The notes beneath the pieces were generated by a model. The model was not told the origin of the DNA, did not search any database, and was given only the letters and a program-made list of their open reading frames with translations. The position numbers and the translations under genes were made by a program. 64,000 nt of DNA from Xestospongia bergquistia (taxonomy: Eukaryota > Porifera > Demospongiae > Haplosclerida > Petrosiidae). This document shows positions 14,478-38,343 of this stretch, in pieces (the stretch's first letter is position 1; each line of letters opens with the position of its first letter). Location: the NCBI GenBank assembly GCA_963965975.1, contig OZ014416.1:744001-808000 (forward strand), in the 5' to 3' direction.

Positions 14478-17412
14478 CTAAATCTTTGTTTCCAATGGTA
14501 TGTACTTCTCTTTATAGCTTAACTTCTTTTTTCTTCTCTTCAACAATTTATGAACTATACATATAAAAATGATAGCAACAAGTAAGAGAAGACAAATGGA
14601 AACAACAAGACCCAAAGAAACAGATAGTGCTCTATTTGAAGAGGTTTGTGGCTCTAAAATTAAACATTTAAATAATATATTAAGTAATTATACATGTACC
14701 TTCACAAAATCCATTGTTACTTAATTCATAACCAGGATTACAAGTACAATTAGTTGCACCAGATATAGTGGAGGTACTGTTACCAGGACACTTCTTACAT
14801 GAGTCATTACCTTGAGATAACTTGAAGTAACCTTTTAAACAAGCTATATGTGCATAAGATATAACATACTAAAGATTGAAATATATCATACTTACCATCA
14901 CAAAAGCCATTGTTACTTAATTCATAACCAGGATTACAAGTACAATTAGTTGCACCAGATGTAGTGGAGGTGCTGTTATCAGGACACTTCTTACATGAGT
15001 CATTACCTTGAGATAACTTGAAGTAACCTTTTAAACAAGCTATATGTGCATAAGATATAACATACTAAAGATTGAAATATATCATACTTACCATCACAAA
15101 AGCCATTGTTACTTAATTCATAACCAGGATTACAAGTACAATTAGTTGCACCAGATGTAGTGGAGGTGCTGTTATCAGGACACTTCTTACATGAGTCATT
15201 ACCTTGAGATAACTTGAAGTAACCTTTTAAACAAGCTATATGTGCATAAGATATAACATACTAAAGATTGAAATATATCATACTTACCATCACAAAAGCC
15301 ATTGTTACTTAATTCATAACCAGGATTACAAGTACAATTAGTTGCACCAGATGTAGTGGAGGTGCTGTTATCAGGACACTTCTTACATAAATTATTACCT
15401 TGAAATGACTTAAAGTAACCTTCTAAACAAGCTATTGTGTATAAGATATAACATACTGAACATTGAAATATATCATACTTACCATCACAAGAGATAGTGT
15501 TACTTAATTCATAACCAGAATTACAAGAACATGAGACAGCTACATTATCCCAAACTCCATTTAGTCCACATGTTAACTGAAGATTAGCTGACACTAGACT
15601 AGCATTATCTACACAGCTACCAACAGTGTCAATGTCTTGAGAGTAGCCTAATGTTTGTGGATAAATGACCAAGTTTTTCACTTGAGATAGACATTCGTTA
15701 GGAGTAGTGACAGTAATACTGACAGTCCTGTTAACATCATTGACAGAGTCTTGATCAGATACTCCATTTCCTGCTCTAACACTCACAGTATAAGTTGTAG
15801 AAAGATTTAATCCAGCGAAAGTATATTGTGTATCAGTTATATTAACTGTTTTATTAATAGATCTACCAGTAATAGTTACAATATAGAAGATATCTGTACG
15901 ACCTCCTGTATCACTGGGTGCAGTCCAAGTTATGTTGAATGAGGTACCTGTTGTGCTAGTATTATGAAGACCCAAAGGAGAAGTAGGAGGAGCTAAGATA
16001 ATGGAAGGAGAAAGTGAAAATATTAAATTGTTTCAGAAATTGAATGAAAACAAAGTAGTTATGAAACAATGCAATGATTTGTGTATAATTGAAAAAGTCA
16101 TACTAATATTATATAACATTTTATCACTTGACACTATATCTAATTAACTAATAAGGACAGATCATGAGTACAATAATCACAATAAAAGGTTATATTCAAT
16201 TAGGACTACACACCCACATACTGTTAGTTTAAGTTGAGTAACAATTTGCTCTATTAAATACTCACCAGTACAAGCTGTAGTAACATTTTCATATCTACTT
16301 CGATAATAACCTGTTAAACAGGTACAGTTAATAGCACCAGATGTAGTGGAGGTACTGTTATCAGGACACACCTTACATGAGTCATTACCTTGAAATGACT
16401 TAAAGTAACCTTCTAAACAAGCTATTGTGTATAAGATATAACATATTGAACATTGAAATATATCATACTTACCATCACAAGAGATAGTGTTATTTAATTC
16501 ATAACCAGGATTACAAGTACATGAGACATCTACATTATCCCAAACTCCATTTAGTTCACAAGTTAACTGAACATTAGCTGACAATGGACTAGCATTCTCT
16601 GCACAACTACCAATAATGTCTATGTCTTGAGAGAAACTAATACTAGGAGCAACTGTTTGTGGATAAATGATCAGGTTTTTCACTTGATAAGGACATATGT
16701 CATAGTACACTACAAGACGTTGTATTGCTGTACAAGATCCTTTATCTATTATTGCTAGATATAGACCAGTAGAAGTGACTTTAAATCTGCCCTGACGAAA
16801 GGAGAATCTATCTTGTCCAGCAGTGTGAATAAGTCGTACTCCTGTATCATAATAGGCACTACTATTATTACGAAATGTTTCATTGATCTCATTAGTTTGA
16901 AAGGCTGAAACTGAGTATGACTGTTGACAGTTAGTACAAGTGCTATCAGTAGCAAATGTCACATTAATGGTCAGTTCTTTAACTCCAACATCAGTGATAT
17001 TGATATATTGAGTTATTAACCAATTGTCTTGTCCTGATTGATCAGTGCCACAAGCTAAAAGATAATGCTTACATTCAATGCCTTGATTATTGTCATACCA
17101 CTGTAAGTAGAAACATATATATGTTATTGTATTATAGTATGTACAACTTACTCTTCGATAGAAAGTACTATTAGGTTCATCAAAATCAACAGATAACCAG
17201 ATACCATTACCTCCTGTAGCAGTCACTAGAGCACCAGATCTATAATTCTGTGTATCCACCAATATATGTTCAGTATTAGAGGTAGGTATTCTACCACTCT
17301 GATCTAGACAATAGTTATCAGCATCACCAGGAGCCACTGACTGAGTAACTACCACTGTAGTAACATATATGGACAACAAGAGAGACAGATAATAACTAGT
17401 AACACCCTTCAT
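14478..17412 (-). CDS. EphL-1: kinase-less Eph-type receptor with repeated EGF exons
   Basis: Ten exons join in phase (768 residues): 17152-17412, 16473-17100, 16266-16421, 15483-15992, four EGF exons of 144 bases (15288-15431, 15092-15235, 14896-15039, 14700-14843) and 14478-14653. Order: signal peptide; ephrin-receptor ligand-binding domain (DNWLITQYI, GLYLAIIDKGSC and RLVVYYDICP match Eph hallmarks); sushi-like and EGF-like Cys-rich region (to about 348); one FN3 (349-446); a second sushi-like module fused within the same exon; four EGF-like modules (519-710); membrane helix (about 720-743). The basic tail is about 25 residues, ending KYIPLETKI. No kinase or SAM domain follows; TAG is at 14478-14480. 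The domain order differs from all other members, indicating exon shuffling. Ligand and signalling role are unknown. Confidence 0.85.
14699..15481 (-). repeat. Tandem exon-intron repeat, 196-base period
   Basis: A 144-base EGF exon plus a 52-base intron is repeated at 196-base spacing (copy edges at about 14699, 14894, 15090, 15286). The copies are nearly identical. Every exon is symmetrical (phase 1 to phase 1), so each insertion keeps the receptor frame. Confidence 0.93.
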
Positions 17413-17423
17413 TACTGTGCTGG

Positions 17424-17431
17424 TTACGTAA
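17424..17431. promoter_or_regulatory. TTACGTAA palindrome, 12 bases 5' of EphL-1 start
   Basis: Palindromic bZIP-like octamer at a fixed position before the ATG. The same distance is seen in three other members. Function is inferred from motif and spacing. Confidence 0.4.
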
Positions 17432-17527
17432 TAATAATTATTAATATTCATAAAATAATTCTTAAAATTAATTATTACTACAAAAATAAACTAAGAAATA
17501 TAATTTTTCCAAAAGTTTCCTGCAAAT

Positions 17528-17713
17528 TTATATAATTATTAAATATATGACTTTCTCTTTTTGTTTTTTCAAAGAGACATCATTTTGTTTGTCATCAACA
17601 GATTCATAAGAAGGACCAGTATTTATGGCAGCTGTAGAAGTCTCCTCTACTTTAGTTTTAATGTAGTCACGGTGACCATCTTGTCTTTGTAGGAAAATAT
17701 CTTGAGTTTTGTG
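17528..17713 (-). pseudogene. Orphan receptor tail fragment
   Basis: Encodes SHKTQDIFLQRQDGHRDY through PSYESV to the stop, matching the end of the type-2 cytoplasmic tails at 27375 and 32765. Everything upstream of it (membrane helix and ectodomain) is missing. The sequence is cut at 17713/17714 by the duplicated Ig cassette on the other strand. Confidence 0.85.
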
Positions 17714-19293
17714 AGAATTTGATCCCAAAACACAAGAGGGACTGTATCATTGTAGAGCTGTTGTTAAAATGGGTGGTGATGATGTTGATATGAAAGATTC
17801 AAAATCTATTGATATACGAGGTCAGTGTACTGTGTCTAATTCTATCTCCATTCAATAACTTTTTCAATAGATGGAACGCTATCAGTATCTGTTGAATCTG
17901 AGGATTACACTTTTGATCTTGGAGCTAACATTAGCATTCCATGCAATACCAGTGTACCTCAACAATTGTATGGATCTACTCCCCACTTAGTAACCGACTA
18001 CCTCCTAATGGCATATCCAATCAGATAGATGAAACGTCAGCTGTTCTTTTGATAACTAGATTTATAGGTAGCAACCAAGGTACTTACCAGTGTAGCGCTA
18101 ACACTGGTACAATGACTGATTCAAAACAAATTCAAATTAATGAGAGAGGTATGTTTGTTTCTATGTTTGTCTCTCTAGCTCTATTCCTCCATTCATTTGT
18201 CTATCTCTGTTAATCTATCCATCTTAATATTATATATATTATATCTTTTCTCTGTCATGTGTTTGATTTTCATTTTAATTTTATACAGAAATTCTTAAGT
18301 TTGCAGTCGGACCTCCTTCCATTATTCAAGCAATGTCAGATGTAACATCAGAGCGACCAATCAAATTCACTTGCAATGTCACATGCAAATGTGGCGGAGC
18401 TAAAGTCAACTGGACAACCGACAATGGTCGCCCTTTCCCAGCTGGAACAATCATTAATACTGGGTTCACAGGTCGAGAGGCAAGTTTGAGATTTTCTTCC
18501 AGTAAAAACATTAATGGCGGTTATACTTGTGTGATCACTCATCCAACACTGGGTAGATTGTCTCGTAATGTGTCAGTTTTAATATTACCAGATCCAATGA
18601 TAACAGTTACCCCAGAGGAGGCAACAGTACCAAGAGAATCAAATTTTACGTTTGTTTGTGAGGCTAATTGTCCAGTGAGGACATTTATATGGACTCGGGG
18701 ACCCTCTGGATCATTACCTGTTAGTGTTATTGTGACAACTATAAGTGATACTGTGTCACATTTGACTGTTATAAGTGTTATTGATGATGTCAACACTGGT
18801 GTTTATTATTGTCGTGCTATGTTTGATATAGGTAGTACACAGACTGATACTGGAAATTTAGCTCAACAACGTAAGTTGATGGATGAATGGTTTGATGGAT
18901 GGATGAATAGTTGGTTAATGATAGATGAATGGATGGATAGATAAATGGATTAATGGACAGATATTTTGAGTGTTGACAATTTTTTTAAAATTTATAGCTT
19001 ACTTGGGCATCGTATTCGATCCAGATTCACCTTTGATAGTCAACCAAGGAGAACAAATTAAAGTTGAGTGCACCTTTGAATGTGAACCTAGGTGTGGTGG
19101 CTATCAATCTAAATGGGATGAAACAAACCTTCCTACTGGCTTGACAGCAAGTATGGATTTCACTGGACGAATGGCTTCTTTAACAGCTACCTCAGCTACC
19201 AGTGAGATGTCTGGATTTTATACATGTAATATAGTACTTACAGCTAATAGTATGACAGAAACCTCTGGTCGTTACGAAATTAGAGTGACTTGA
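17714..19293 (+). pseudogene. Truncated copy of the 3' third of the Ig/vWA gene
   Basis: Homologous to 12060-13620, with the same four exons and splice sites. It begins inside an Ig exon with no start codon, signal peptide or promoter. One C is missing near 17957 (ACCCTC in the original, ACCTC here), which shifts the frame in the second Ig exon. The later two exons (18289-18870 and 18998-19293) remain open and end at TGA. It has few other changes, so it is young. It could still be transcribed from a neighbour, but a functional product is unlikely. Confidence 0.85.
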
Positions 19294-19802
19294 TATTATT
19301 AAATGGACACTTTTCTGTTCTGTCTGTGATGGTCACTCTCTTCCTCTCCCATCTTTCACAATTTTAACATTAGTTGTATCATAATAATAGCAGGTAGACA
19401 TTGTTTTATTAAAAATTGAGTTTTTTTCTACTTTTATAAATCATTAACTTCTCTTTCTTATTCATGTAATGAGTTAAAAGTGAAATACAACAGCTTTTGT
19501 CTAAGAATTTCATTTGGTAATTATAAAAAATACAAGGTTGGTCTCATATTAGAATATGTGTATTTATCTTAACAAGTTTAATTTTGTTCATGAGGAGGAC
19601 CTGTTGCAGTAGTTTCTACTACATCTGCTGTAATGTTGTTTTAGTAAAGAATTTGTATATAATGTCTTGTTCAGTTTGTATAATGTTAGTTATAATAATA
19701 AATAATGAAAACGTGAGCTTTAAATTTAGTTATAGTTAACATTGAATACAATAATTCTGTGATATAATTTATTATAGTAATCTATTTGCACTACATTTAT
19801 CA

Positions 19803-19950
19803 TGTCACAAACTATGGCTCCCTCTAAAGCATAAATGTCACAAACTATGGCTCCCTGTAAACCATAAATGTCACAAACTATGGCTCCCTGTAAACCATAA
19901 ATGTCACAAACTATATCTTCCTGTAAAGCATAAATGTCACAAACTATGTC
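19803..19950. repeat. 33-base tandem repeat, second copy of the array
   Basis: TGTCACAAACTATG-led units at 19803, 19836, 19869, 19902 and 19934; the duplicate of 14133-14280 with slightly different unit sequences. Confidence 0.9.
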
Positions 19951-20149
19951 TAGTGATAAGAATGCAATGTCATCAAATGTTAATGTTAGTTGAAACAAAA
20001 CAAAACATTATTTACAATATTAATACAATGGCTGTCTTTCACAAGTTTGATGTTCAAAGGTTAGTTAATTGAAATTCTTTTAGTTGTATTTGACTATATT
20101 TAAAAGAGGCCTTTATTAAATTAACTTCAGTTTGTATTAAACATAAACA

Positions 20150-22891
20150 CTAAATCTTTGTTTCCAATGGTATGTAGTGCTCTCTATAGCTTAACTTCCT
20201 TTTTCTTCTCTTCAACAATTTATGAACTATACATATAAAAATGATAGCAACAAGTAAGAGAAGACAAATAGAAATAACAAGACCCAAAGAAACAGATAGT
20301 GCTCTATTTGAAGAGGTTTGTGGCTCTAAAATTAAACATTTAAATAATATATTAAGTAATTATACATGTACCTTCAGTGCGGACATATATCTGAGAACTA
20401 GACACTTCACCTGGACCATATTGATTAATAGCTCGAATCTATAGTACATTAATATTACATACAATTATTAGATTTAATACTACTTACCCAGATATAATAT
20501 GTCTCTGGTTGGATATCAAGATTATCTAAATCATATCTAGTTGCTGTATTGGGTAATGTAATTGCCACTCTAGCCTCAGCACTATTGTTAACAATGTTAA
20601 TGAGTATATGATATCCCTGTAGAGTCCCATATATATTAGCAGGTGCTGTCCATGTTAAAATAGAGGCAACTCCAGTAACCTGTGATGTCATCAAGTTAAC
20701 ATCCAGAGGTTTTGTTGGACCAGGGTTAGCAGTAGTGACAGTAATACTGACAGTCCTGTTAACATCATTACTAGAGTCTTGATCAGATACTCCATTTCCT
20801 GCTCTAACACTTACAGTATAAGTTGTAGAATAATTTAATCCAGTGAAAGTATATTGTGTATCAGTTATATTAACTGTTTCATTAATATATCCACCAGTAA
20901 TAGTTACAATATAGAAGATATCTGTACGACCTCCTGTATCACTGGGTACAGTCCAAGTTATGTTGAATGAGGTAATCAATGTACTAGTGTTATGAAGACC
21001 CATAGGAGAAGTAGGAGGAGCTAAGGTAAGGGAAGTAAAAATATTAAATTGTTTCAGAAATTACAAAGTAGTTATGAAACAATGCAATGATTTATGTATA
21101 ATTGAAAAATCATATTAATGTCATCATGACTCCTGTTATAAAAACGTGATAAGAACTTTTCATGAATTAATTTTTGCATAGTACAAGTGAGTAATGGTTT
21201 ATGAAACTACAATAAAACCATACTTTGACAATTAACTACATCATGGATTTACCACAGTAGTTTACATAAAATGGTGTTTGTGGTCCAAATTAAAATATAA
21301 TATTAAGTATGGAGATAATATACACAATGCTGACACTTACCAGTACAATTTGTAGTAACATCTTCATATCCACTTCGATAATAACCTGTTATACAGGTAC
21401 AGTTAGTTGCACCAGATGTAGTGGAGTTACTGTTATCAGGACACACCTTACATAAGTCATTACCTTGAAATGACTTAAAGTGACCTTCTAAACAAGCTAT
21501 TGTGTATAAGATATAACATATTGAACATAGAAATATATCATACTTACCATCACAAAATCCATTGTTACTTAATTCATAACCAGGATTACAAGTACAATTA
21601 GTTGCACCAGATGTAGTGGAGTTACTGTTATCAGGACACAGCTTACATGAGTCATTACCTTGAAATGACTTAAAATGACCTTTTAAACAAGCTATTATGT
21701 AGAAGATATAACATATTGAACATAGAAATATATCATACTTACCATCACAAAATCCATTGTTACTTAATTCATAACCAGGATTACAAGTACAATTAGTTGC
21801 ACCAGATATAGTGGAGTTACTGTTATTAGGACACAGCTTACATGAGTCATTACCTTGAAATGACTTGAAATAACCTTCTGAACAAGCTATTGTGTATATA
21901 AGATATAATATATTGAACATTGAAATATATCATACTTACCACCACAAGAGATAGTGTTATTTAATTCATAGCCAGGATTACAAGAACATGAGACATTTAC
22001 GTCATCCCAAACTCCATTTAGTTCACAAATTAACTGAAGATTAGCTGACACTGGACTAGCATTCTCTACACAGCTACCATTAATGTCTATGTCCTGAGAA
22101 AAACTAATACTAGGAGCAACTGTTTGTGGATAAATGATCAGGTTTTTCACTTGATAAGGACATATGTCATAGTACACTACAAGACGTTTTATTACTATAC
22201 AAGAACCTTTATCTGTTACTGCTAAATATAGACCAGTAGAAGTGACATTAAATCTGCCCTGAACAGAAGAAAGGTTGCTTTGTCTGGCAGGGTGAACGAG
22301 TTGCACTCCTGTGTCATAATAGACATTACTATTATTACGAGATGTCTCATTGATCTCATTAGTTTGAAAGGTTGAAATTGAATATGACTGTGAGCAGTTA
22401 GTACAAGTACTATCAGTAGCAAATGTTACATTAATGGTCAGTTCTTCAACTCCAACATCAGTGATATTGATATATTGAGTTATTAGCCAATTATCTTGTC
22501 CTGATTGATCAGTGCCAAAAACTGTAAGATTATGTTCACAATGATTACCTTGATTATTATCATACCAACCCTGTAAAAAGAAATTTAAAATGTGAGACAA
22601 TAAAAAGAATAAAAGTTAATTTACTATTTGATGAGAAAGATTGGTATTACTTGGTTCATCAAAATCAACAGATAACCAGATACCATTACCTCCTGTAGCA
22701 GTCACTAGAGCACCAGATCTATAATTCTGTGTATCCACCAATATATGTTCAGTATTAGAGGTAGGTACTCTACCAATCTGATTTAGACAATATCTATCAG
22801 CATCACCAGGAGTCACTGACTGAGTAACTACCACTGTAGTAACATATATGGACAACAAGAGAGACAGATAATAACTAGTAACACCCTCCAT
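20150..22891 (-). CDS. EphL-2: kinase-less Eph-type receptor, three EGF and two FN3 domains
   Basis: Eight exons join in phase (705 residues): 22625-22891, 21940-22570, 21743-21886, 21548-21691, 21341-21496, 20488-21020, 20372-20438 and 20150-20325. Order: signal peptide; ephrin-receptor ligand-binding domain (GTDQSGQDNWLITQY, paired Cys in STCTNCSQSY) and sushi-like module to about 299; three EGF-like modules to 447; two FN3 domains (448-647); membrane helix about 657-680; basic tail ending HYIPLETKI. The first intron differs from the other members (about 54 bases, different sequence), and the ligand-binding domain has NHCEHNLTVFG in place of ECKHYLLACG, so this is a divergent allele type. 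The last two exons lie inside the duplicated cassette, so its tail is nearly identical to that of EphL-1. No kinase domain is present. Confidence 0.87.
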
Positions 22892-22902
22892 TACCGTGCT
22901 AG

Positions 22903-23054: not shown

Positions 23055-23664
23055 TTATATATGTAACTTTCTCCTTTTGTATTTTAAAAGAGACATCATA
23101 TTGTTTTCATTAACAGATCCAGAAGAAGGAGCAGTGTTCGTGGCAGTTGTAGAAGTCTCCTCTACTTTAATTTTAATGTAACCATAGCAACCATCTTGTC
23201 TTTGCAGAGATTTCTTGAGTTTTGTGTGATGATGAGTAGATCCGTATGATTGTTGAGGGTACACTGGTGTTACATACATTAGCTCCAAGATCAAAAGTAT
23301 ATAATCTTCAGATTCAAGGGAAGCTAGTGAATGGAGATAGAATTTCACACAGTATACTAACCTTGTATATCAATATGTTTGATTCCTCAATCTCAACAAC
23401 ATCACCACCCTTTTCAACAACAGATCTACAATGTAAAGTGCCTCTTAACCAGATACCATTACCTCCTGTAGCATTCACTAGAGCACCAGATCTATAATTC
23501 AGTGTATCCACCAATATCTGTTCAGTATTAGAGGTAGGTACTCTACCACTCTGATCTAGACAATAGCTATCAGCATCACCAAGAGCCACTGACTGAGTAA
23601 CTACCACTGTAGTAACATATATGGACAATAAGAGAGACAGATAACAACTAGTAACTCTCTCCAT
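23055..23664 (-). pseudogene. Chimeric receptor fragment with inverted Ig-gene insert
   Basis: Read on the minus strand, it starts with the signal peptide and first exon of a receptor (MERVTSCYLSLLL, from 23664). It breaks off after GGNGIWL and continues at 23446 into a 211-base piece (23236-23446) homologous to 12081-12327 of the Ig/vWA gene. It then re-enters a type-2 receptor tail (23055-23235), which carries frame damage. The membrane helix, FN3 and most of the ligand-binding domain are gone. The first exon is fused at its 5' side directly to the EGF exon of the next copy. Confidence 0.82.
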
Positions 23665-25447
23665 AATATGACACACCTTACATGAGTCATTACCTTGAAA
23701 TGACTTAAAGTAACCTTCTAAACAAGCTATTGTGTATAAGATATAACATATTGAACATTGAAATATATCATATTTACCATCACAAGAGATAGTGTTATTT
23801 AATTCATAACCAGGATTACAAGAACATGAAACATTTACATCATCCCAAACTCCATTTAGTTCACAAGTTAACTGAATATTAGCTGACACTGGACTAGCAT
23901 TCTCTACACAGCTACCAACAATGTCTATGTCCTGAGAAAAACTAATACTAGGAGCAACTGTTCGCGGATAAATGACCAGGTTTTTCACTTGATAAGGACA
24001 TATGTCATAGTACACTACAAGACGTTGTATTCCTGTACAAGAACCTTTGTCTGTTACTGCTAAATATAGACCAGTAGAAGTGACATTAAATATGCCCTGA
24101 GCAGAAGAAATTTTGCTTTGTCTGGCAGGGTGAACGAGTCGCACTCCTGTGTCATAATAGGCACTACTATTAGCATGAAATGTCTCATTGATCTCATTAG
24201 TTTGAAAGGTTGAAATTGAGTATGACTGAGAGCAGTTAGTAGTACAAGTACTATCAGTAGCAAATGTTACATTAATGGTCAGTTCTTCAACTTCAACATC
24301 AGTGATATTGATATATTGAGTTATTAGCCAATTGTCTTGTCCTGATTGATCAGTGCCAAAAACTGTAAGATTATGTTCACAATGATTACCTTGATTATTA
24401 TCATACCAACCCAGTAAAAAGAAATTTAAAATGTGAGACAATAAAAAGAATGAAAATTAATTTACTATTTGATGAGAAAGATTAGTATCATTAGGTTCAA
24501 CAGATAACCAGATACTATTACCTCCTGTAGCATTCACTAGACCACCAGATCTATAATTCTATGCATCCACCAATATCTGTTCAGTATTAGAGGTAGGTAC
24601 TCTACCACTCCAGTGGAGTAGGAACTATATTTACTTTATGGGAGCAAAATTTTTAATGTACATACTATAATATTGTATATAATATAATCAAAAAGATCCA
24701 AAATATACAGTATGGCTGCTGCATATTTTAGATAAATTGAGATGTAATGTCCTTAGTGTCAATACTATCAGTTCTATCTATGTGTATATGTAAAAGCATG
24801 CAGTGATTCAGTCTAGATTGTGTCATTGAGTTTCTTAAGTATGTCTTGATGCATTTAAGTGCTGAAAAGTTGCGTTCATATGTCTTCAGAAGTAGTACCA
24901 ATTTCTTCCAAGGTTTCCTCACGAGAGATATTATCTTCGTCAAAATCAGAAAGTGGTTCTTCTTGACCATTAGAATTACAAGTGTCTACAAGATCAGCGG
25001 AGGATATCAGACTAGGTGATATATTACAATTATTTACCTTCTTGAATGACATCATTTGATTCACAAGTATGATCATCATTAATTCAGCAGAAGATTGAGA
25101 TAGTTGAGGCTGATTCACAAAGTATGTTTCAATTCTTGGTGTTTGACTACATCTAACTACTTTTCTCTTTTTACAAGGTTGACTCATGATATCAAGAATA
25201 ATCTCCAGTCCAGGCGTTCTTCCACCATATAAAATAATGACACTGTCTAGTCGTGTGCTTTTTTAGCACCTGGCCTTAGTGTTAATTGTATGCATGATTA
25301 ACCAGCTTTCCAAGCCTCTACTTCATTGTTTTATTGCATCATATAGAGGCACATACACACTGACAGAGCCACTGACTGAGTAACTACCACTGTAGTAACA
25401 TATATGGACAATAAGAGAGACAGATAATAACTAGTAACTCTCTCCAT
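23665..25447 (-). pseudogene. Receptor copy interrupted by a transposon remnant
   Basis: The signal-peptide exon starts at 25447, runs to about 25367, is interrupted by 24611-25366, and resumes at 24610 with RVPTSNTEQILVD-like coding that has its own stop and losses. The ligand-binding domain and sushi-like exon (about 23783-24416) is largely open. The EGF exon is cut after NDSCKVC at 23669, where another copy begins. FN3, membrane helix and tail are absent. Confidence 0.82.
24611..25366 (-). mobile_element. hAT-family transposon remnant (ZMYM1-like transposase ends)
   Basis: Inserted in a receptor signal exon. The minus strand encodes an N-terminal piece (KKRKVVRCSQTPRIETYF, from 25187) typical of the lead of ZMYM1/TTF-type hAT proteins. 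In another frame it encodes a C-terminal piece containing NFSALKCIKTYLRNSMTQ, matching the hAT dimerisation region. The central catalytic part is deleted and the pieces are frame-shifted, so the element is not autonomous. The left end begins CAGTGGAGTAGGAAC, similar to hAT terminal repeats. The right end ends CACTG but is otherwise not a clear inverted copy. About 33 bases of receptor sequence are missing at the insertion point. Confidence 0.75.
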
Positions 25448-25643
25448 AATATGGTACCTACAGTATATGAAAACATCAATGAATATTACTATAATGAAAT
25501 AATATTAATATAATTAATTATATTATCTAGTCAAAATTGAAAGAGAAAGTAAAAACATCTTATTTAAAAAAACATTGAGTATAATTAATAAAAATATGTA
25601 AATCTTGGACTAATTACTACAGAATCCTTTAAAGGTTTATCTG

Positions 25644-27250
25644 TTACATAATTTTCAAATATTCCTGTTCATTTTTCAAAGTACTATCACTTTGTTTATC
25701 ACAAACTGGCTTATAAACAGGACCAGTGTTAGTAGTGGCAGCTGTACAAGTCCTTTGTTCTTTGCAGAACTAGGAAGAGCTATAAAAAGGGAAGAAAGAG
25801 AGTGAGAGAAAAAAATGGAATATTATGTAATAGAAAACAATTTGTATTAAAATACTAATATGAATATATAATAACAACAATAGTAATATTGTTATTTTAA
25901 ATTAAATATACATAACAAATGTTTACTTAGTCTCATATATTATATAACATTCTATCACTTGACACTACATCTAATCAACTAATAAGGACAGCGATCATGA
26001 GTACAATAATCACAATAAAAGGTTGTATTCAATTAGGACTACACACCCATACATTATTTTTTAGTTTAAGATTAGTAGTAATTTGCTCTATTAAATACTC
26101 ACCAGTACAAGCTGTAGTAACATCATCATATCTACTTCGATAATAACCTGTTATACAGGTACAATTAGTTGCACCAGATATAGTGGAGTTACTGTTATCA
26201 GGACACTTCTTACATAAGTCATTGCCTTGAGATGACTTGAAATAGCCTTCTGAACATGCTATGTGTGTATAAGATATAACATATTGAACATTAAAATATA
26301 TCATACTTACCATCACAAGAGATAGTGTTACTTAATTCATAACCAGGATTACAAGAACATGAGACAGCTACATCATCCCAAACTCCATTTAGTTCACAAG
26401 TTAACTGAAGATTAACTGACAATGGACTAGCATTATCTACACAGCTACCAACAATGTCTATGTCTTGAGGGAAACTAATGCTAGGAGCAACTGTTTGTGG
26501 ATAAATGAGCAGGTTTTTTACTTGATAAGGACATACGTTGTAGTACACTACAAGATGTTGTATTGCCGTACAAGATCCTTTGTCTACTACTGCTAAATAT
26601 AGACCAGTAGAAGATACTGTAAATCTCTCCTGACGAAAGGAGTATCTATTTTGTCCAGCAGTGTGAATAAGTCATACTCCTGTATCATAATAAGCACTAC
26701 TATTAGCACGAAATGTTTCGTTTATCTCATTAGTTTGAAAGGCTGAAATTGAGTATGACTGTAGACAGTTAGTACAAGTACTATCAGTAGCAAATGTCAT
26801 ATTAATGGTCAGTTCTTTAACTCCAACATCAGTGATATTGATATATTGAGTTATTAACCAATTGTCTTGTCCTGATTGATCAGTGCCACAAGCTAAAAGA
26901 TAATGCTTACATTCAGTGCCTCCATTATTGTCATACCACTGTAAGTAGAAACATATATATGTCATTGTATTATAGTATGTACAACTTACTCTTCGATAGA
27001 AAGTACTGTTTGGTTCATCAAAATCAACAGATAACCAGATACCATTACCTCCTGTAGCAGTCACTAGAGCACCAGATCTATAATTCTGTGTATCCACCAA
27101 TATATGTTCAGTATTAGAGGTAGGTATTCTACCACTCTGATTTAGACAATAGTTATCAGCATCACCAGGAGCCACTGACTGAGTAACTACCACTGTAGTA
27201 ACATATATGGACAACAAGAGAGACAGATAATAACTAGTAACACCCTTCAT
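25644..27250 (-). pseudogene. Receptor copy with nonsense codon and internal deletion
   Basis: The signal exon (26990-27250) and most of the ligand-binding domain match the intact members. At 26672-26674 an Arg codon (CGA elsewhere) is TGA. The sushi-like and EGF exons follow (about 26093-26549), but both FN3 domains, the membrane helix and the juxtamembrane part are deleted. A type-1 tail remnant (25644-25775) is joined directly to what is FN3 acceptor sequence in intact copies. It carries the TTACGTAA motif before its start, so it may be transcribed. Confidence 0.85.
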
Positions 27251-27374: not shown

Positions 27375-29735
27375 TTATATAATTTTTAAATATATGACTT
27401 TCTCCTTTTGTATTTTCAAAGAGACATCATTTTGTTTGTCATCAACAGATTCATAAGAAGGACCAGTATTAGTGGCAGCTGTAGAAGTATCCTCTATTTT
27501 AGTTTTAATGTAGTCACGGTGACCATCTTGTCTTTGTAGGGAAATATCTTGAGTTTTGTGTGATGATGAGTCAGTGTATATTGGTTTCCTTGGAGGAAAG
27601 CTTGCAATCTCATCAATGTGTATATATCTGTGATTTCTTTTTTCCATTACATGATAGTTAGACCTAATGTTGTGTGATATGTCAAACTCCATTAGTGTGT
27701 CCTGGACTGTGGACCTTAATGATTGCTGTGTTAGTGATGATTCCTTTTTTTTCCATAATCTGTAAATTATACACACAGTACTAGAGACAATGATCAGTAA
27801 AAAAAGAGAGACAACTAAACAAATGATTGTCAAAGAGACTGATAGCATGGAGCTTGAAGATGCTTGTTCTGAAAATAATAACAAATAATAATAAATATAA
27901 CAAAATATAATAAATATAACAAATATAACAAATATAATAAATAAAATAAAAATAAATATATTAGTTATATACCTTCCAAAGTAGTGACATTAATACTAAC
28001 AGTCCTGTTAACATCATTACTAGAGTCTTGATCAGATACTCCATTTCCTGCTCTAACACTTACAGTATAAGTTGTAGAGGGATTTAATCCAGCGAAAGTA
28101 TATTGTGTATCAGTTATATTAACTGTTTTATTAATAGATCTACCAGTAATAGTTACAATATAGAAGATATCTGTATGACCTCCTGTATCACTGGGTGGAG
28201 TCCAAGTGACATTGAATGAGGTACTCAATGTGCTAGTGTTATGAAAACCCAAAGGAGAAGTAGGGGGAGCTAAGAGGGTGAAAGAAGATAAACAGCAAGT
28301 ATTTTGACAAAATACTATAAATTTGGGACCTTGAATATAACAACTGGTATAATATTCCAATTTGTAATTCCCAGGAGATAGAGTGATAGACAAATACTTT
28401 ACTGTATTACTGAATTTATAGTCTGAAAAGTTTATTAAACAATTTACACAACAACACAAAAAGACTTCACAAATTTATAAATAGTTAAATTAAACATCCT
28501 TTTGTCTATAGTATCTTCTAGTATTATATATTATTTACAGTTGTTAATTGCTATTCCTTTGACATTAATATGATATATAAATTAAAATACTCACCAGTAC
28601 AAGCTGTAGTAACATCTTCATATCTACTTCGATAATAACCTGTTAAACAGGTACAATTAGATGCACCAGATGTAGTGGAGTTACTGTTATCAGGACACTT
28701 CTTACATAAGTCATTCCTTTGAGATGGCTTGAAATAACCTTCCAAACAAGCTACATAAAGAAATACATGACAGTTATAACAAAATGTTTATTTACCATCA
28801 CATGATATGTTGTTACTTAATTCATAACCAGGATTACAAGAACATGAGACATCTACATTATCCCAAACTCCATTTAGTTCACAAGTTAACTGAACATTAG
28901 CTGACAATGGACTAGCATTCTCTGCACAACTACCAACAATGTCTATGTCTTGAGAGAAACTAATACTAGGAGCAACTGTTTGTGGATAAATGATCAGGTT
29001 TTTCACTTGATAAGGACATATGTCATAGTACACTACAAGACGTTGTATTGCTGTACAAGATCCTTTATCTATTATTGCTAGATAGACACCAGTAGAAGTG
29101 ACTTTAAATCTGCCCTGACGAAAGGAAAATCTATCTTGTCCAGCAGTGTGAATAAGTCGTACTCCTGTATCATAATAGCCATTACTATTATCACGAAATG
29201 TCTCATTGATCTCATTAGTTTGAAAGGCTGAAATTGAGTATGACTGTGAGCAGTTAGTACAAGTACTATCAGTAGCAAATGTCACATTAATGGTCAGTTC
29301 CTTAACTCCAACATCAGTGATATTGATATATTGAGTTATTAACCAATTGTTTTGTCTTGATTGATCAGTGCCACAAGCTAAAAGATAATGCTTACATTCA
29401 ATGCCTCCATTATTGTCATACCACTATAAGTAGAAGCATATATATGTCATTGTATTATAGTATGTACAACTTACTCTTCGATGGAAAGGACTATTTGGTT
29501 CATCAAAATCAACAGATAACCAGATACCATTACCTCCTGTATTAGTCACTAGAGCACCAGATCTATAATTCTGTGTATCCACCAATATATGTTCAGTATT
29601 AGAGGTAGGTATTCTACCACTCTGATCTAGACAATAGCTATCAGCATCACCAGGAGCCACTGACTGAGTAACTACCACTGTAGTAACATATATGGACAAC
29701 AAGAGAGACAGATAACAACTAGTAACTCTCTCCAT
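27375..29735 (-). CDS. EphL-3: kinase-less Eph-type receptor, type 2 (one FN3)
   Basis: Five exons join in phase (611 residues): 29475-29735, 28796-29423, 28595-28750, 27973-28269 and 27375-27868. Signal peptide and ephrin-receptor ligand-binding domain with sushi-like module to about 296, EGF-like module to 348, a single FN3 (349-447), membrane helix about 455-480, then a tail of about 125 residues. Tail tyrosines sit in NYHVM (YxxM), RYIHIDEI, PSYESV and VIYLKII, plausible SH2 or sorting sites. There is no kinase or SAM domain. The 51-base first intron here contains an in-frame TAG, so unlike in other members its retention would truncate the protein. The ligand-binding domain reads SRQNNWL where others have SGQDNWL. 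Confidence 0.87.
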
Positions 29736-29942: not shown

Positions 29943-32653
29943 TTACATAATTTTCAAATATTCCTCTTCATCTTTTGAAATATTATCATTTTGTTCATCA
30001 CCAACTGGTTCATAAACAGGACCAGTGTTAGTAGTGACATCTGTACAAGTCCTTTGTACTTTACAGTCAATATCATCAATATATAAGTATTCATAATGAC
30101 TAGTTAATGGATTAATAGATGTTGGTGTCTTTTGAGGAAAACTTGCAATCTCATCAATATAATAATAGCCATGATCTTTTTCTTGTCTTAAATGATAGTT
30201 AGGTCTAACATTGTATGAAATATTTGATTCCATTGGTGTGTCTTGAGCTGTAGACCTTTGTTTTGATGACAAGGACTCTCTTCTCTTAAACAATCTATAA
30301 ATTAAACATATGAAGATGATAGTAACAATTAAGAGAAGACAAATGAAACCAACAAGACTGAATGAAATAGATAGTACTATGTTCAGAAAAGTTTGTGGTT
30401 CTAAATAAAAAATCAATTATAGATCATGTGATTATGTTATCATATTATACCTTCTGTTCGATGATATTTGAATGAGGTAGAGAGTTCCCCTGGACCATAT
30501 TCATTGATAGCTTGAATCTATAGTGCATTAATATTACATATAATTATTATATTTAATGTTACTTACCCAGATATAATATGTCCCTGGTTGGATATCAAGA
30601 TTATCCAAATCATATCTAGTTGCTGTATTGGGTAATGTAATTACCACTCTAGCCTCAGCACTATTGTTAACAGTGTTAATGAGTATATGATATTCCTGTA
30701 GAGTTCCATATATATTAGCAGGTGCTGTCCATGTTAAAATAGAGACAACTCCAGTAACTTGTGATGTTCCCAAGTTAACATCCAGAGGTTTTGTTGGACC
30801 AGAGTTAGGAGTAGTGACAGTAATACTGACCAGCTTGTTAACATCATTACTAGAGTCTTGATCAGATACTCCATTTCCTGCTCTAACACTCACAGTATAA
30901 GTTGTAGAAGGATTTAATCCAGTGAAAGTATATTGTGTATCAGTTATATTAACTGTTATATTAATAGATCTACCAGTAATAGTTACAATATAGAAGATAT
31001 CTGTACGACCTCCTGTATCACTGGGTACAGTCCAAGTTATGTTGAACGAGGTACTCAATGTGGTAGTGTTATGAAGATTAATAGGAGAACTAGGAGGAGC
31101 TAAGGAAGAGAGAGGGAAAGAGAGAGAGAAATATGGATCATGGTGCAATAATAAAAAAAATATTAAAACATTTTTGTGAACATAATAATAATAGTTATAT
31201 TGTTATTTTAAAGTAAAATGTACACAACAAATGTTAGTCTCACTCCTTATAATAAACAAGAGATATATGTATGTGAACATTTTATCACTTAACACTACAT
31301 CTAATCAACTAATAAGGACATGTTAAAATGAGTGGTTGTGAATATCACAAATATCATAGTAATAGCAGTAATGATTATAGTGTAAACTTTATATTCAATT
31401 CAATGGCTAGTTAATACTATATTATAGTACAAGTTAGTACATTCAATTTGGCACCCACATACTGTTAGTTTAAGATGAGTAGTAATTTGCTCTATTAAAT
31501 ACTCACCAGTACAAGCTGTAGTAACATCTTCATATCTACTTTGATAATAACCTGTTAAACAGGTACAACTAGTTGTACCAGATGTAGTGGAGTTACTGTT
31601 ATCAGGACACTTCTTACATAAGTCATTACCTTGAGATGACTTGAAATAGCCTTCTAAACAAGCTATGTGTGTATAAGATTAACATACTGAACATTGAAAT
31701 ATATCATACTTACCATCACAAGAGATAGTGTTTTTTAATTCATAACCAGGATTACAAGAACATGAGACATCTACATCATCCCAAACTCCATTTAGTTCAC
31801 AAGTTAACTGAACATTTGCTGACACTGGACTAGCATTCTCTACACAGCTACCAATAATGTCTATGTCTTGAGAGTAACTAATACTAGGGGCAACTGTTCG
31901 CGGATAAATGACCAGGTTTTTCACTTGATAAGGACATATGTCATAGTACACTACAAGACGTTGTATTGCTGTACAAGATCCTTTGTCTACTACTGCTAGA
32001 TATAGACCAGTAGAAGTGATTTTAAATCTGCCCTGACGAAAGGAGAATCTATCTTGTCCAGCAGTGTGAAAAAGTCGTACTCCTGTGTCATAATAGGCAC
32101 TACTATTAGCACGAAATGTCTCATTGATCTCATTAGTTTGAAAGGCTGAAATTGAGTATGACTGTTGACAGTTAGTACAAGTGCTATCAGTAGCAAATGT
32201 CACATTAATGGTCAGTTCTTTAACTCCAACATTAGTGATATTGATATATTGAGTTATTAACCAATTGTCTTGTCCTGATTGATCAATGCCACAAACTAAA
32301 AGATAATGCTTACATTCAATGCCTTGATTATTGTCATACCACTGTAAGTAGAAACATATATATGTCATTGTATTATAGTATGTACAACTTACTCTTCGAT
32401 AGAAAGTACTGTTTGGTTCATCAAAATCAACAGATAACCAGATACCATTACCTCCTACATAATTCAGTAGAGCACCAGATCTATAATTCTGTGTATCCAC
32501 CAATATATGTTCAGTATTAGAGGTAGGTACTCTACCACTCTGATTTAGACAATAGCTATCAACATCACCAGGAGCCACTGACTGAGTAACTACCACTGTA
32601 GTAACATATATGGACAACAAGAGAGACAGATAATAACTAGTAACACCCTCCAT
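29943..32653 (-). CDS. EphL-4: kinase-less Eph-type receptor, type 1 (two FN3)
   Basis: Six exons join in phase (700 residues): 32393-32653, 31714-32341, 31507-31662, 30567-31099, 30451-30517 and 29943-30400. Signal peptide; ephrin-receptor ligand-binding domain and sushi-like module to 296; EGF-like to 348; two FN3 domains (349-548; SFNITWTVPSDTGGRTD resembles Eph FN3-1); membrane helix about 555-580; tail of about 118 residues. Tail tyrosine motifs: HGYYYIDEI, YEYLYIDDI, GPVYEPV and EEYLKIM. The YYYIDEI region sits where Eph receptors have their juxtamembrane tyrosines, so the tail looks like a receptor cut just before the kinase. Paralogue of EphL-6 with the same exon sizes. Confidence 0.88.
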
Positions 32654-32664
32654 TACCGTGCTAG

Positions 32665-32672: not shown

Positions 32673-32764
32673 AAGACACAATAATTATTATTAATATTTA
32701 TAAATTATTAAAATTAATTATTACTACAAAAATAAGGTAATTTTTCCAAAAGTTTCCTGCAAAT

Positions 32765-35145
32765 TTATATAATTTTTAAATATATGACTTTCTCCTTTTG
32801 TTTTTTCAAAGAGACATCATTTTGTTTGTCATCAACAGATTCATAAGAAGGACCAGTATTAGTGGCAGCTGTAGAAGTATCCTCTATTTTAGTTTTAATG
32901 TAGTCACGGTGACCATCTTGTCTTTGTAGGGAAATATCTTGAGTTTTGTGTGATGATGAGTCAGTGTATATTGGTTTCCTTGGAGGAAAGCTTGCAATCT
33001 CATCAATGTGTATATATCTATGATTTCTTTTTTGCATTACATGATAGTTAGACCTAATGTTGTGTGGTATGTCAAACTCCATTAGTGTGTCCTGGACTGT
33101 GGACCTTAGTGATTGCTGTGTTAGTGATGATTCCTTTCTTTTCCGTAATCTGTAAATTATACACACAGTACTAGAGACAGTGATCAGTAAAAAAAGAGAG
33201 ACAACTAAACAAATGATTGTCAAAGAGACTGATAGCATGGAGCTTGAAGATGCTTGTTCTGAAAATAATAACAAATAATAATAAATATAACAAAATATAA
33301 CAAATATAACAAATATAATAAATATAACAAATATAACAAATATAATAAATAAAATAAAAATAAATATATTAGTTATATACCTTCCAAAGTAGTGACAGTA
33401 ATACTGACAGTTCTGTTAACATCATTACTAGAGTCTTGATCAGATACTCCATTTCCTGCTCTAACACTTACAGTATAAGTTGTAGAGGGATTTAATCCAG
33501 CGAAAGTATATTGTGTATCAGTTATATTAACTGTTATATTAATAGATCTACCAGTAATAGTTACAATATAGAAGATATCTGTACGACCTCCTGTATCACT
33601 GGGTGGAGTCCAAGTTATGTTGAATGAGGTACTCAATGTACTAGTGTTATGAAAACCCAAAGGAGAAGTAGGGGGAGCTAAGAGAACGATGATGAATATA
33701 TAGCAAGTATTTTGACAAAATACTATAAATTTGGGGCCTGGAGTATAACAACTGGTATAATATTCCAATTTGTAATTCCCAGGAGATAGAGTGATAGACG
33801 GATACTTTACTGTATTACTAGAATTTATAGTCTGAAAAGTTTATTAAACAATTTACACAACAACACAAAAAGATTTCACAAATTTATAAATAGTTAAATT
33901 AAACATCCTTTTGTCTATAGTATCTTCTAGTATTATATATCATTTACAGTTGTTAATTGCTATTCCTTTGACATTAATATGATATATAAATTAAAAATAC
34001 TCACCAGTACAAGCTGTAGTAACATCTTCATATCTACTTCGATAATAACCTGTTAAACAGGTACAGTTAGATGCACCAGATGTAGTGGAGTTACTGTTAT
34101 CAGGACACTTCTTACATAAGTCATTCCTTTGAGATGGCTTGAAATAACCTTCCAAACAAGCTACATAAAGAAATACATGACAGTTATAACAAAATGTTTA
34201 TTTACCATCACATGATATGTTGTTACTTAATTCATAACCAGGATTACAAGAACATGAGACATCTACATTATCCCAAACTCCATTTAGTTCACAAGTTAAT
34301 TGAACATTAGCTGACAATGGACTAGCATTCTCTGCACAACTACCAACAATGTCTATGTCTTGAGAGAAACTAATACTAGGAGCAACTGTTTGTGGATAAA
34401 TGATCAGGTTTTTCACTTGATAAGGACATATGTCATAGTACATTACAAGACGTTGTATTGCTGTACAAGATCCTTTATCTATTATTGCTAGATATAGACC
34501 AGTAGAAGTGACTTTAAATCTGCCCTGACGAAAGGAGAATCTATCTTGTCCAGCAGTGTGAATAAGTCGTACTCCTGTATCATAATAGGCACTACTATTA
34601 GCACGAAATGTCTCATTGATCTCATTAGTTTGAAAGGCTGAAATTGAGTATGACTGTGAGCAGTTAGTACAAGTACTATCAGTAGCAAATGTCACATTAA
34701 TGGTCAGTTCTTTAACTCCAACATCAGTGATATTGATATATTGAGTTATTAACCAATTGTCTTGTCCTGATTGATCAGTGCCACAAGCTAAAAGAAAATG
34801 CTTACATTCAATACCTTGATTATTGTCATACCACTGTAAGTAGAAACATATATATGTCATTGTATTATAGTATGTACAACTTACTTTTCGATGGAAAGGA
34901 CTATTTGGTTCATCAAAATCAACAGATAACCAGATACCATTACCTCCTGTAGCAGTCACTAGAGCACCAGATCTATAATTCTGTGTATCCACCAATATCT
35001 GTTCAGTATTAGAGGTAGGTACTCTACCACTCTGATCTAGACAATAGCTATCAGCATCACCAGGAGCCACTGACTGAGTAACTACCACTGTAGTAACATA
35101 TATGGACAATAAGAGAGACAGATAACAACTAGTAGCTCTCTCCAT
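32765..35145 (-). CDS. EphL-5: kinase-less Eph-type receptor, type 2 (one FN3)
   Basis: Five exons join in phase (611 residues): 34885-35145, 34206-34833, 34005-34160, 33381-33677 and 32765-33258. Domain order and exon sizes equal EphL-3: signal peptide, ephrin-receptor ligand-binding domain, sushi-like, EGF-like, one FN3, membrane helix, roughly 125-residue tail with NYHVM, RYIHIDEI, PSYESV and VIYLKII. Between the EGF and FN3 exons an intron segment (about 33680-33840) matches 28270-28450. It is partly open in EphL-3 but frame-shifted here, so it is probably not coding. Close paralogue of EphL-3; the two lie in equivalent positions of a duplicated two-gene block. Confidence 0.88.
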
Positions 35146-35352
35146 AATATGGTACCTACAGTATATGAAAACATCAATGAATATTACTATAATGAAATAA
35201 TATTAATATAATTAATTATATTATCTAGTCAAAATTGAAAGAGGAAGTAAAATCATCTTATTTAAAAAACATTGAGTATAATTAATGAAATTAGAAGAGT
35301 ATAAATTTTGAACTGTAATTACTACACAATTCTTTAATTATTTTTTTGTCTG

Positions 35353-36693
35353 TTACATAATTTTCAAATATTCCTCTTCATCTTTTAAAGTATTATCATT
35401 TTGTTCATCACCAACTGGTTCATAAACAGGACCAGTGTTAGTAGTGACATCTGTACAAGTCCTTTGTACTTTGCAGTCAATATCATCAATATATAAGTAT
35501 TCATAATGACTAGTTAATGGATTAATAGATGTTGGTGTCTTTTGAGGAAAACTTGCAATCTCATCAATATAATAATAGCCATGATCTTTTTCTTGTCTTA
35601 AATGATAGTTAGGTCTAACATTGTATGAAATATTTGATTCCATTGGTGTGTCTTGAGCTGTAGACCTTTGTTTTGATGACAAGGACTCTCTTCTTTTAAA
35701 CAATCTATAAAATAAACATATGAAGATGATAGTAACAATTAAGAGAAGACAAATGAAACCAACAAGACTGAATGAAATAGATAGTACTATGTTCAGAAAA
35801 GTTTGTGGTTCTAAATAAAAAATCAATTATAGATCATGTGATTATGTTATCATATTATACCTTCAGTTTGATGATATTTGAATGAGGTAGAGAGTTCCCC
35901 TGGACCATATTCATTGATAGCTTGAATCTATAGTACATTAATATTACATACAATTATTAGATTTAATACAAATTACCCAGATATAATATGTCCCTGGCTG
36001 GATATTAAGATTATCCAAATCATATCTAGTTGTTGTATTGGGTAATGTAATTACCACTCTAGCCTCAGCACTATTGTTAACAGTGTTAATGAGTATATGA
36101 TATCCCTGTAGAGTCCCATATATATTAGCAGGTGCTGTCCATGTTAAAATAGAGGCAACTCCAGTAACCTGTGATGTCATCAAGTTAACATCCAGAGGTT
36201 TTGTTGGACCCGAGTTAGCAGTAGTGACATTAATACTGACAGTCCTGTTAACATCATTACTAGAGTCTTGATCAGATACTCCATTTCCTGCTCTAACACT
36301 TACAGTATAAGTTGTAGAAGGATTTAATCCAGTGAAAGTATATTGTGTATCAGTTATATTAACTGTTTTATTAATAGATCTACCAGTAATAGTTACAATA
36401 TAGAAGATATCTGTACGACCTCCTGTATCACTTGGTGTAGTCCAAGTTATGTTGAATGAGGTAATCAATGTGCTAGTGTTATGAAGGCCCATAGGAGAAC
36501 TAGGAGGAGCTAAGAGATGAAAGGGAAGAGAGAGAGAAAAGAGAAGGTGAGAGTGAGAGAGAAATGTGGAACATTGTATAATAGAATACAATTTGTATTA
36601 AAACACTAACATGAATGTATATGAACAACAATAGTGATATTATTATTTTAAACTAAATGTACACAACAAATGTTAGTAACATCCCCCATAATA

Positions 36694-36747
<54 letters not shown>

Positions 36748-38343
36748 TTATATTACTTGACTCTACATCTAATTAACTAATAAGGACATGTTAAACTGAG
36801 TGGTTGTGAATATCACAAATATCATAGTAATAGTAGTAATGGTTATAGTGTAAACTTTACATTCAAATGATTACTATACAAGTTTGTACATTCAATTAAG
36901 AACTACATACATTAAAGTTTAAGATGAGAAGTTATTTGCTCTATTAAATACTCACCATTGCAAGCTGTAGTAACATCATCATATCTACTTCGATAATAAC
37001 CTGTTAAACAGGTACAATTAGTTGCACCAGATGTAGTGGAGTTACTGTTATCAGGACACTCCTTACATAGGTCATTACTTTGAGATGACTTGAAGTAACC
37101 TTCTGAACAAGCTATAAAGAAATTAGTAAAAAATTAAAGTATTAAAGCAAATATAATACAATTAAAAAATAAGAAAATTTTGTTTGTTTTAAAGGTATGA
37201 TCTGTTTTGAAATAGTGACATAAATGTTGCTTTTTAGAAGTAGCTATACTGATTACATAAATGTATATTACATGATCAGTAACTACAACAGTTATAAATT
37301 AACTAAATATATTAAATTGTGCAGTCAACTAGGTCTATGAACTAAAGCCATTATGTTCAAATCAATTAAGTATTAATACTGTAATAGCTAGCATTTTATT
37401 TACCATCACAGGTAATATTGTTACTTAATTCATAACCAGGATTACAAGAACATGAGACATCTACATCATCCCAAACTCCATTTAGTTCACAAGTTAACTG
37501 AACATTAGCTGACAATGGACTAGCATTCTCTATACAGCTACCAACAATGTCTATGTCTTGAGAGAAACTAATACTAGGAGCAACTGTTCGTGGATAAATG
37601 ACCAGATTTTTCACTTGATAAGGACATATGTCATAGTACACTACAAGACGTTGTATTGCTGTACAAGATCCTTTATCTACTACTGCTAAATATAAACCAG
37701 TAAAAGATACTGTAAATCTCTCCTGACGAAAGGAGAATCTATCTTGTCCAGCAGTGTGAATAAGTCGTACTCCTGTATCATAATAAGCACTACTATTAGC
37801 ACGAAATATTTCATTGATCTCATTAGTTTGAAAGACTGAAATTGAGTATGACTGTTGACAGTTAGTACAAGTACTATCAGTAGCAAATGTCACATTAATG
37901 GTCAGTTCTTTAACTCCAACATCAGTGATATTGATATATTGAGTTATTAACCAATTGTCTTGTCCTGGTTGATCAGTGCCACAAGCTAAAAGATAATGCT
38001 TACATTCAATGCCTTGATTACTGTCATACCACTGTAAGTAGAAACATATATATGTCATTGTATTATAGTATGTACAACTTACTCTTTGATAGAAAGTACC
38101 ATTAGGTTCATCAAAATCTACAGATAACCAGATACCATTACCTCCTGTAGCAGTCACTAGAGCACCAGATCTATAATTCTGTGTATCTACCAATATATGT
38201 TCAGTATTAGAGGTAGGTAATCTACCACTCTGATCTAGACAAAAGCTATCAGCATCACCAGGAGCCACTGACTGAGTAACTACCACTGTAGTAACATATA
38301 TGGACAACAAGAGAGACAGATAACAACTAGTAACTCTTTCCAT
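35353..38343 (-). CDS. EphL-6: kinase-less Eph-type receptor, type 1 (two FN3)
   Basis: Six exons join in phase (700 residues): 38083-38343, 37404-38031, 36956-37111, 35977-36509, 35861-35927 and 35353-35810. Domain order and exon lengths are the same as EphL-4, including the tail with HGYYYIDEI, YEYLYIDDI, GPVYEPV and EEYLKIM. The start chosen is MERVTSCYL; an upstream in-frame ATG at 38361 would only add six residues before the signal peptide. Its 5' half resembles the MERV-type starts of type-2 genes, so it may be a recombinant of the two types. It is the last array member; Spen follows at 38600. Confidence 0.88.
36696..36740. repeat. (AT)n microsatellite
   Basis: About 45 bases of perfect AT repeat in the intron between the EGF and FN3 exons of EphL-6. 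Confidence 0.95.

Follow-up and report, generated by a model that had tools for sequence, protein, structure and literature searches.

The stretch analyzed here, referred to as the window, comprises 64 kb (positions 744001 to 808000) of contig OZ014416.1, hereafter C6, of the demosponge Xestospongia bergquistia, and contains, at window positions 14478 to 38343, a tandem array of genes that encode the extracellular part of an Eph receptor and in which neither a kinase nor a SAM domain was found. Gene models were rebuilt from the raw sequence, with splice sites picked by GT-AG borders, reading frame and likeness between copies; genome-wide searches covered 146 Mb in 21 contigs. Six minus-strand genes run from ATG to stop with GT-AG introns, matching phases and no internal stop in any of the six, and the models match to the base the outer limits given in an initial annotation of this DNA, which had described six intact minus-strand genes with exons joined in phase. 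Each intact gene encodes a signal peptide, an Eph ligand-binding domain (LBD), a cysteine-rich domain (CRD) and EGF-like region, FN3, a single membrane helix and a cytoplasmic tail, with two hydrophobic segments per protein, one N-terminal and one ahead of the tail. From high to low coordinate, the order is G1 (tail A), G2 (tail B), G3 (A), G4 (B), G5 (broken), G6 (scrambled), G7 (tail C) and G8 (C), followed below by individual exons and an intron (window positions; TM, transmembrane segment).

35353..38343, minus strand: G1, kinase-less Eph, 700 amino acids, 6 exons, two FN3, long tail A
32765..35145, minus strand: G2, kinase-less Eph, 611 amino acids, 5 exons, one FN3, long tail B
29943..32653, minus strand: G3, kinase-less Eph, 700 amino acids, 6 exons, two FN3, tail A
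27375..29735, minus strand: G4, kinase-less Eph, 611 amino acids, 5 exons, one FN3, tail B
25640..27250, minus strand: G5, broken copy with TGA inside the LBD; FN3 exon run into a tail remnant, FN3 lost
23058..25447, minus strand: G6, scrambled copy with two signal-peptide pieces, one G7-type LBD and a tail B remnant
20150..22891, minus strand: G7, kinase-less Eph, 705 amino acids, 8 exons, three EGF-like repeats, two FN3, diverged LBD, short tail C
14478..17412, minus strand: G8, kinase-less Eph, 768 amino acids, 9 exons, one FN3, short tail C
38032..38082, minus strand: intron inside the LBD of G1, 51 bp, reading open; same position in all six genes
35353..35810, minus strand: TM and tail A exon of G1, with 11 tyrosines among 118 tail residues
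32765..33258, minus strand: TM and tail B exon of G2
20150..20325, minus strand: TM and short tail C exon of G7, with 24 tail residues
17531..17746, minus strand: orphan tail-like exon between G7 and G8, with a weak tail A match at C6:761552-761668 (E 0.013) and a likeness to tail B by eye

The tails, which had been put at 25 to 125 residues, do range from short to long and end in a stop, but measure 24 (C; G7 and G8), 118 (A; G1 and G3) and about 129 residues (B; G2 and G4). Likewise, the full ectodomain with FN3 that had been read in all six genes does include FN3 in each, but in two copies in G1, G3, and G7 and in one in G2, G4, and G8, and two further gene copies are broken; G8 also carries a second CRD and four further EGF-like repeats C-terminal to its FN3. 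The TM and tail exons are 98% identical between G1 and G3 and 96% identical between G2 and G4, and G1 with G2 and G3 with G4 look like a duplicated pair. Among these four genes, the distances from each stop to the next ATG are 207, 111, and 207 bp, a spacing that is operon-like or would go with very compact promoters.

Exons 1 and 2 are separated by a 51-bp intron (54 bp in G7) that reads open in most copies, and the absence from the Eph protein of the sponge Amphimedon queenslandica of any counterpart to the 17 residues that it would encode supports its being a real intron. The only in-frame stop among the intact copies, a TAG at about 29424 in G4, is the acceptor of this intron (29474-29424), which rules out that G4 is a pseudogene. 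With regard to the remaining copies, G6 is interrupted at 24600-25340 by other sequence, including a 128-residue open frame without a Pfam match, and a 33-bp tandem repeat is common to positions 14132-14276, downstream of G8, and 19802-19948, downstream of G7; the 3' flanks of these two genes were therefore probably duplicated too.

Eph ectodomains and the search for kinase and SAM domains

A whole-protein Pfam scan, which covered G1, G4, and G7, placed Ephrin_lbd (PF01404) above its 27-bit cut-off in all three proteins (39.5, 37.3, and 35.1 bits, respectively) and the fn3 profile above cut-off as well; Ephrin_CRD and Ephrin_rec_like were above cut-off in G7 and below it in G1 and G4. The EphA4 ectodomain from the PDB aligned to G1 with an E value of 7e-44, across the cysteine-rich and EGF-like region. 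Over the genome, all ten places found with Ephrin_lbd were above cut-off and all lie on C6; the window has eight of them, and the others are at C6:1012586 and, in diverged form, at C6:827360. A search with exon 2 gave 12 matches (the eight window copies, two at C6:827 kb, and one each at a kinase-bearing Eph and at the second CRD of G8). Profile searches thus bear out the Eph ectodomain that the initial annotation had read from the translations.

The same annotation had reported no kinase or SAM domain, and the searches agree: within the window, the best match to the Amphimedon Eph kinase in tblastn had an E value of 4.8 and the best match to its SAM domain 0.66, compared with 6e-58 and 2e-29, respectively, at the genome's own kinase Eph as control. 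No place in the window was among the matches listed in a kinase profile scan of the genome, in which 129 of 1201 candidates were scored, so that its counts are lower bounds. The juxtamembrane motif YxDPxTY, present in the Amphimedon Eph (P0001) and in the genome's kinase Eph, was not seen by eye in the array tails. A kinase hidden in the intergenic gaps is ruled out by the lack of a kinase match in the window and, among G1 to G4, by gaps of only 111-207 bp. A genuine kinase-less Eph architecture is therefore well supported at the sequence level for all six genes, which are Eph-derived yet, because kinase and SAM were looked for and not found, are by definition not Eph receptor tyrosine kinases (RTKs).

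The kinase Eph lies at C6:1.006-1.013 Mb, on the same strand as the array and about 225 kb from it, and combines the ectodomain exons and phases of the array with a different signal peptide, another TM, a juxtamembrane YVDPRTY, kinase exons with VAVK, an intron-split HR/D and DFG, and a SAM domain. Over LBD and CRD, G1 to G4 and G8 are 87-89% identical to it and G7 is 76% identical; the likeness ends at the TM exon, and the tails are unrelated. Since exon order, phases and sequence are common to both, the array probably originated from the kinase Eph. Among outside relatives from a named organism, the Amphimedon Eph is the closest; it has kinase and SAM and is 46% identical over the ectodomain. 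Among database entries, P0013 is the unspliced G3 frame of this window, and the ENA-derived P0014 (a cluster of 12 member sequences) and P0015 carry array-type LBDs that are 80% and 75% identical to G1, respectively; a search of GTDB contigs with P0013 gave 46 pattern matches with no relative among them. A diverged Eph-like gene on the plus strand at C6:826-830 kb encodes an LBD, an FN3-like region, a TM and a short tail; no match to the kinase query was found in the 10 kb around it.

A second tandem array, at 1.14-1.20 Mb of another contig (C12), has an unrelated RTK ectodomain and bears kinase-containing and kinase-less copies side by side. In four 10-kb pieces of it, three sets of kinase exons were found, along with at least five ectodomains that are followed by a membrane helix and a tail containing tyrosine, without any kinase match ahead of the next copy; further kinase-bearing members of this family lie at C1:10.26 Mb and C12:0.66 Mb. 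Kinase-less copies in this unrelated array suggest a general habit. Tyrosine kinase matches also stand in tandem elsewhere, with at least 14 at C11:5.92-6.07 Mb and at least 10 at C6:1.62-1.70 Mb.

With regard to the immediate neighbors of the Eph array, a plus-strand gene with Ig domains and VWA-like domains (the latter slightly below the Pfam cut-off) adjoins it at window positions 5938-13617. Near-identical reading frames occur at 18542-18802 and 12891-13151, and a piece of the Ig gene appears to have been copied between G7 and G8. The SPOC domain of a Spen-like gene (38770-39087) adjoins G1.

Cytoplasmic tails and proposed exchange between copies

Tails A and B are identical at 58 of 117 aligned residues, and nonsynonymous changes between them are depleted (74.2 of 280.3, compared with 40.8 of 70.7 synonymous; p 1.8e-6), which indicates that these tails are a constrained part of the protein and not read-through. 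Tail A has 11 tyrosines among its 118 residues, and tail B has 7 among 129. Motifs of the YxxPhi type occur in all three tail types (e.g., YIPL in tail C), with 6 in tail A compared with 2.1 in shuffled sequences (P 0.007) and 4 in tail B compared with 1.6, a marginal excess (P 0.05). When tail A was compared with the protein collection, none of 29 candidates reached an E value of 1; weak matches on C12 (best E 0.013) are not claimed as homology.

Coding exons are alike throughout most of the array, with a likeness of 0.93-0.98 for exon 2 in pairs without G7 (0.86-0.89 in pairs with G7) and of 0.91-0.97 for the FN3 exon in pairs without G8. Intron 3, by contrast, is no more than 0.04 away from its shuffled control in six of the 15 array pairs (G7 takes part in three of these) and is intermediate in 4; in the pair G2-G8, for instance, exon 2 (0.97) and the FN3 exon (0.94) are alike, and intron 3 (0.70) is at the level of shuffled sequence (0.71). 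Intron 2 of the kinase Eph matches that of G1 at 0.93 across 279 aligned bases, where the shuffled value is 0.70. Because coding exons are alike where introns are often unlike, we infer gene conversion, and the sequences are most simply read as having swapped stretches of exon repeatedly, in part with the kinase Eph some 225 kb away. Synonymous divergence also differs along the genes, at 0.022 in the TM and tail exon compared with 0.109 in LBD and CRD for G1-G3 (Fisher p 0.016), and at 0.026 compared with 0.159 for G7-G8 (p 0.059). For LBD and CRD, the ratio of nonsynonymous to synonymous divergence (dN/dS) is 0.44-0.92 across the 21 pairs that the six genes and the kinase Eph form, and thus never reaches 1.

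A possible paired-receptor role and its rivals

An interpretation to which we give about an even chance, and which is drawn from sequence, is that the kinase-less paralogues bind the same ligand as the kinase Eph and, in the manner of paired receptors, weaken or divert its signal. Ectodomain exons of the genome's kinase Eph would have been copied, probably in this direction and specifically in this lineage, and joined to other membrane and tail exons. The array genes probably bind the ligand of the kinase Eph because the LBD and CRD of five of the six are 87-89% identical to its own, and gene conversion would keep these near-identical binding surfaces alike. The array receptors would then bind the same membrane ephrin at cell contacts and join Eph clusters, where the short basic tails (C) would damp kinase signaling as decoy or dominant-negative partners, and the long tyrosine-rich tails (A and B), phosphorylated in trans, would attract SH2/PTB or endocytic adaptors and lead to another output. 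Decoys or co-receptors had been among the roles suggested initially, an idea that gains indirect support from the LBD and CRD identity and, for the co-receptor, becomes concrete because a kinase-bearing Eph exists outside the window.

The overall result would be a paired-receptor layout upon an Eph scaffold, i.e., a gene cluster in which ectodomains are alike and tails differ, as in paired immune receptors, to which KIR and LILR also belong. Such receptors, exemplified by CD300A/C, resemble the array in similar ectodomains, unlike signaling parts and broken copies, and perhaps in gene conversion (PMC12447643; papers are cited by accession, each for the part of its text that was available), and in CD300A/C gene conversion keeps the ectodomains alike while signaling differs; the array differs from them in an Eph rather than an Ig ectodomain and in that inhibitory or activating signals are here only motif matches. 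Classical Eph RTKs, such as the Amphimedon ephrin type-B receptor 1-B-like protein (P0001), share with the array the signal peptide, LBD, CRD/EGF region, FN3 and single TM, whereas the array has no kinase or SAM match, unrelated tails, a tandem arrangement and variable numbers of EGF-like and FN3 repeats. EphA7-T1, which binds full-length EphA7 and lowers its phosphorylation, is likewise a kinase-less Eph beside a full-length form (PMC7717530), but is an isoform of EphA7, in contrast to separate genes with their own constrained tails. EphA10 and EphB6 are also Eph members without catalytic output, but keep an altered, inactive kinase domain that the array genes lack; such kinase-dead Ephs trace to jawed vertebrates, and invertebrate isoforms with altered kinase activity are mentioned (PMC6993872). 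Eph kinases have been dated to Cnidaria (PMC8662651), and the available parts of that paper and of PMC8242945 added nothing on kinase-less Ephs. A literature search over titles and the opening lines of abstracts, which took in few subscription papers and no bioRxiv preprints or supplements, brought up no account of kinase-less Eph genes in tandem.

Several observations weigh against a paired-receptor role or the exchange on which it draws. Tyrosine is kept in both long tails at only 5 of 13 tyrosine columns, so that tyrosines are no more conserved between A and B than other residues, and the ITIM-like strings (SHYEYL in A, VIYLKI in B, none in C) are short and weak. In another 5 of the 15 array pairs, the two copies of intron 3 resemble each other (0.82-0.97), comparisons with the kinase Eph are uninformative for this intron since it measures 2107 bp there, and intron replacement could account for part of the contrast between exons and introns. 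The near-star LBD tree is compatible with the tail groupings (p 0.11 and 0.31) and is too shallow to prove discordance between LBD and tail. Outside LBD and CRD, dN/dS exceeds 1 in a few pairs on very small counts, i.e., 2.5 for the EGF exon and 1.5 for the TM and tail of G7-G8, each on 1 synonymous change, and 1.3 for FN3 of G2-G7. For the kinase Eph, whose 3' half was followed one exon at a time, the model is incomplete. Finally, a search of the unspliced genome with the ephrin profile PF00812 gave no match, which does not show absence; the same profile did detect an ephrin in the proteome of Spongilla, a sponge with multiple ephrin receptors in which ephrin is expressed in pinacocytes (PMC10176882).

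Of the alternatives, the one that fares best, though we think it rather unlikely, is that the proteins are scavengers or adhesion molecules that bind and internalize, or tether, ephrin-bearing cells through YxxPhi endocytic motifs and do not signal. The presence of such motifs in all three tail types and the lack of any matched catalytic domain agree with this, but constraint over the whole of the long tails suggests more than one endocytic motif.

We hold it unlikely that the genes form a polymorphic recognition array, with variable self ligands or microbes recognized in allorecognition or immunity, binding loops diversified and tails signaling via other kinases. Self/non-self or microbe recognition had been among the roles suggested initially, and nothing in the sequence supports it directly or refutes it. 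The tandem arrangement with broken copies and the array-type LBDs from other sources (P0014, P0015) would fit, and the evidence otherwise turns on the ephrin-contact segments of the LBD. The segments are human EphA2 residues 35-41, 52-70, and 151-168, mapped approximately by anchors W43, W52, C70, W80, N164, and Y179, with ranges and anchors as given in PMC6485061; alignments back the third segment and the C70-W80 spacing, and the first segment is the least certain. Among the six genes, variable residues are more frequent at contact positions (22 of 42) than elsewhere in the LBD (41 of 162; p 0.0013 in a Fisher test, equaled by 3 of 204 label shifts). When the kinase Eph, P0014, and P0015 are added to make nine sequences, the counts are 27 of 42 and 57 of 162 (p 8e-4, equaled by 8 of 204 shifts). 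However, the excess depends on G7 and P0015, without which it is 15 of 42 compared with 43 of 162 (p 0.25); once G7 is dropped from the window genes plus kinase Eph, 10 of 42 contact positions vary compared with 35 of 162 others (p 0.83). Since synonymous divergence of G7 is raised in the same segments (0.38-0.43), its changes there fit segment exchange rather than selection, and dN/dS is below 1 in every LBD/CRD pair; positive selection on the LBD is possible. The family had been called fast-changing, which is apt for G7 and, of the two related sequences from other sources, mainly for P0015, with changes gathered in the contact segments, but not for the other five members, which are near-uniform.

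A combination of the two ideas, in which a polymorphic, gene-converting kinase-less array with long tyrosine-motif tails and short ones would stand opposite a single kinase Eph and settle self/non-self or symbiont contact, is a quite unlikely proposal as judged from the present data. A literature search on allorecognition and Eph in the sponge Amphimedon found nothing. If true, such an Eph-based recognition array would be a non-immunoglobulin counterpart, in an early-branching animal, of KIR/CD300-type clusters.

That the genes are by-products of ectodomain duplication, little transcribed or not at all and drifting without distinct function, is improbable; two of eight copies are broken and some LBD/CRD pairs come near a dN/dS of 1 (e.g., 0.92 for G3-G8), but six frames of 611-768 codons are intact, the long tails are constrained and none of the 21 LBD/CRD pairs reaches 1. 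Very improbable is that the tails are splice alternatives and that transcripts join the ectodomains to kinase exons elsewhere, as the phase 1 end of the exon ahead of the TM in both array and kinase Eph would allow, given that the next ATG follows 111-207 bp past each stop among G1 to G4, that the window holds no kinase match and that the kinase Eph possesses its own ectodomain exons.

A survey listed 100 sponge Eph-LBD sequences, of which 15 also contained the kinase, and found in demosponges three LBD clades compared with one kinase clade, which was ascribed to selection differing between the domains (PMC6485061). The kinase-less Eph-LBD proteins of sponges and choanoflagellates in that survey have, like the array, an LBD without a kinase; sequences lacking domains were described there as fragmentary or partial models, whereas six of the array genes are complete in the genome and show that receptors of this kind can be real. 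Complete kinase-less genes thus offer another explanation for these clades, i.e., that many LBD-only sequences may be real receptors and not fragments. If the array genes do share a ligand with the kinase Eph, dedicated kinase-less partner genes would have tuned Eph signaling in an early-branching animal.

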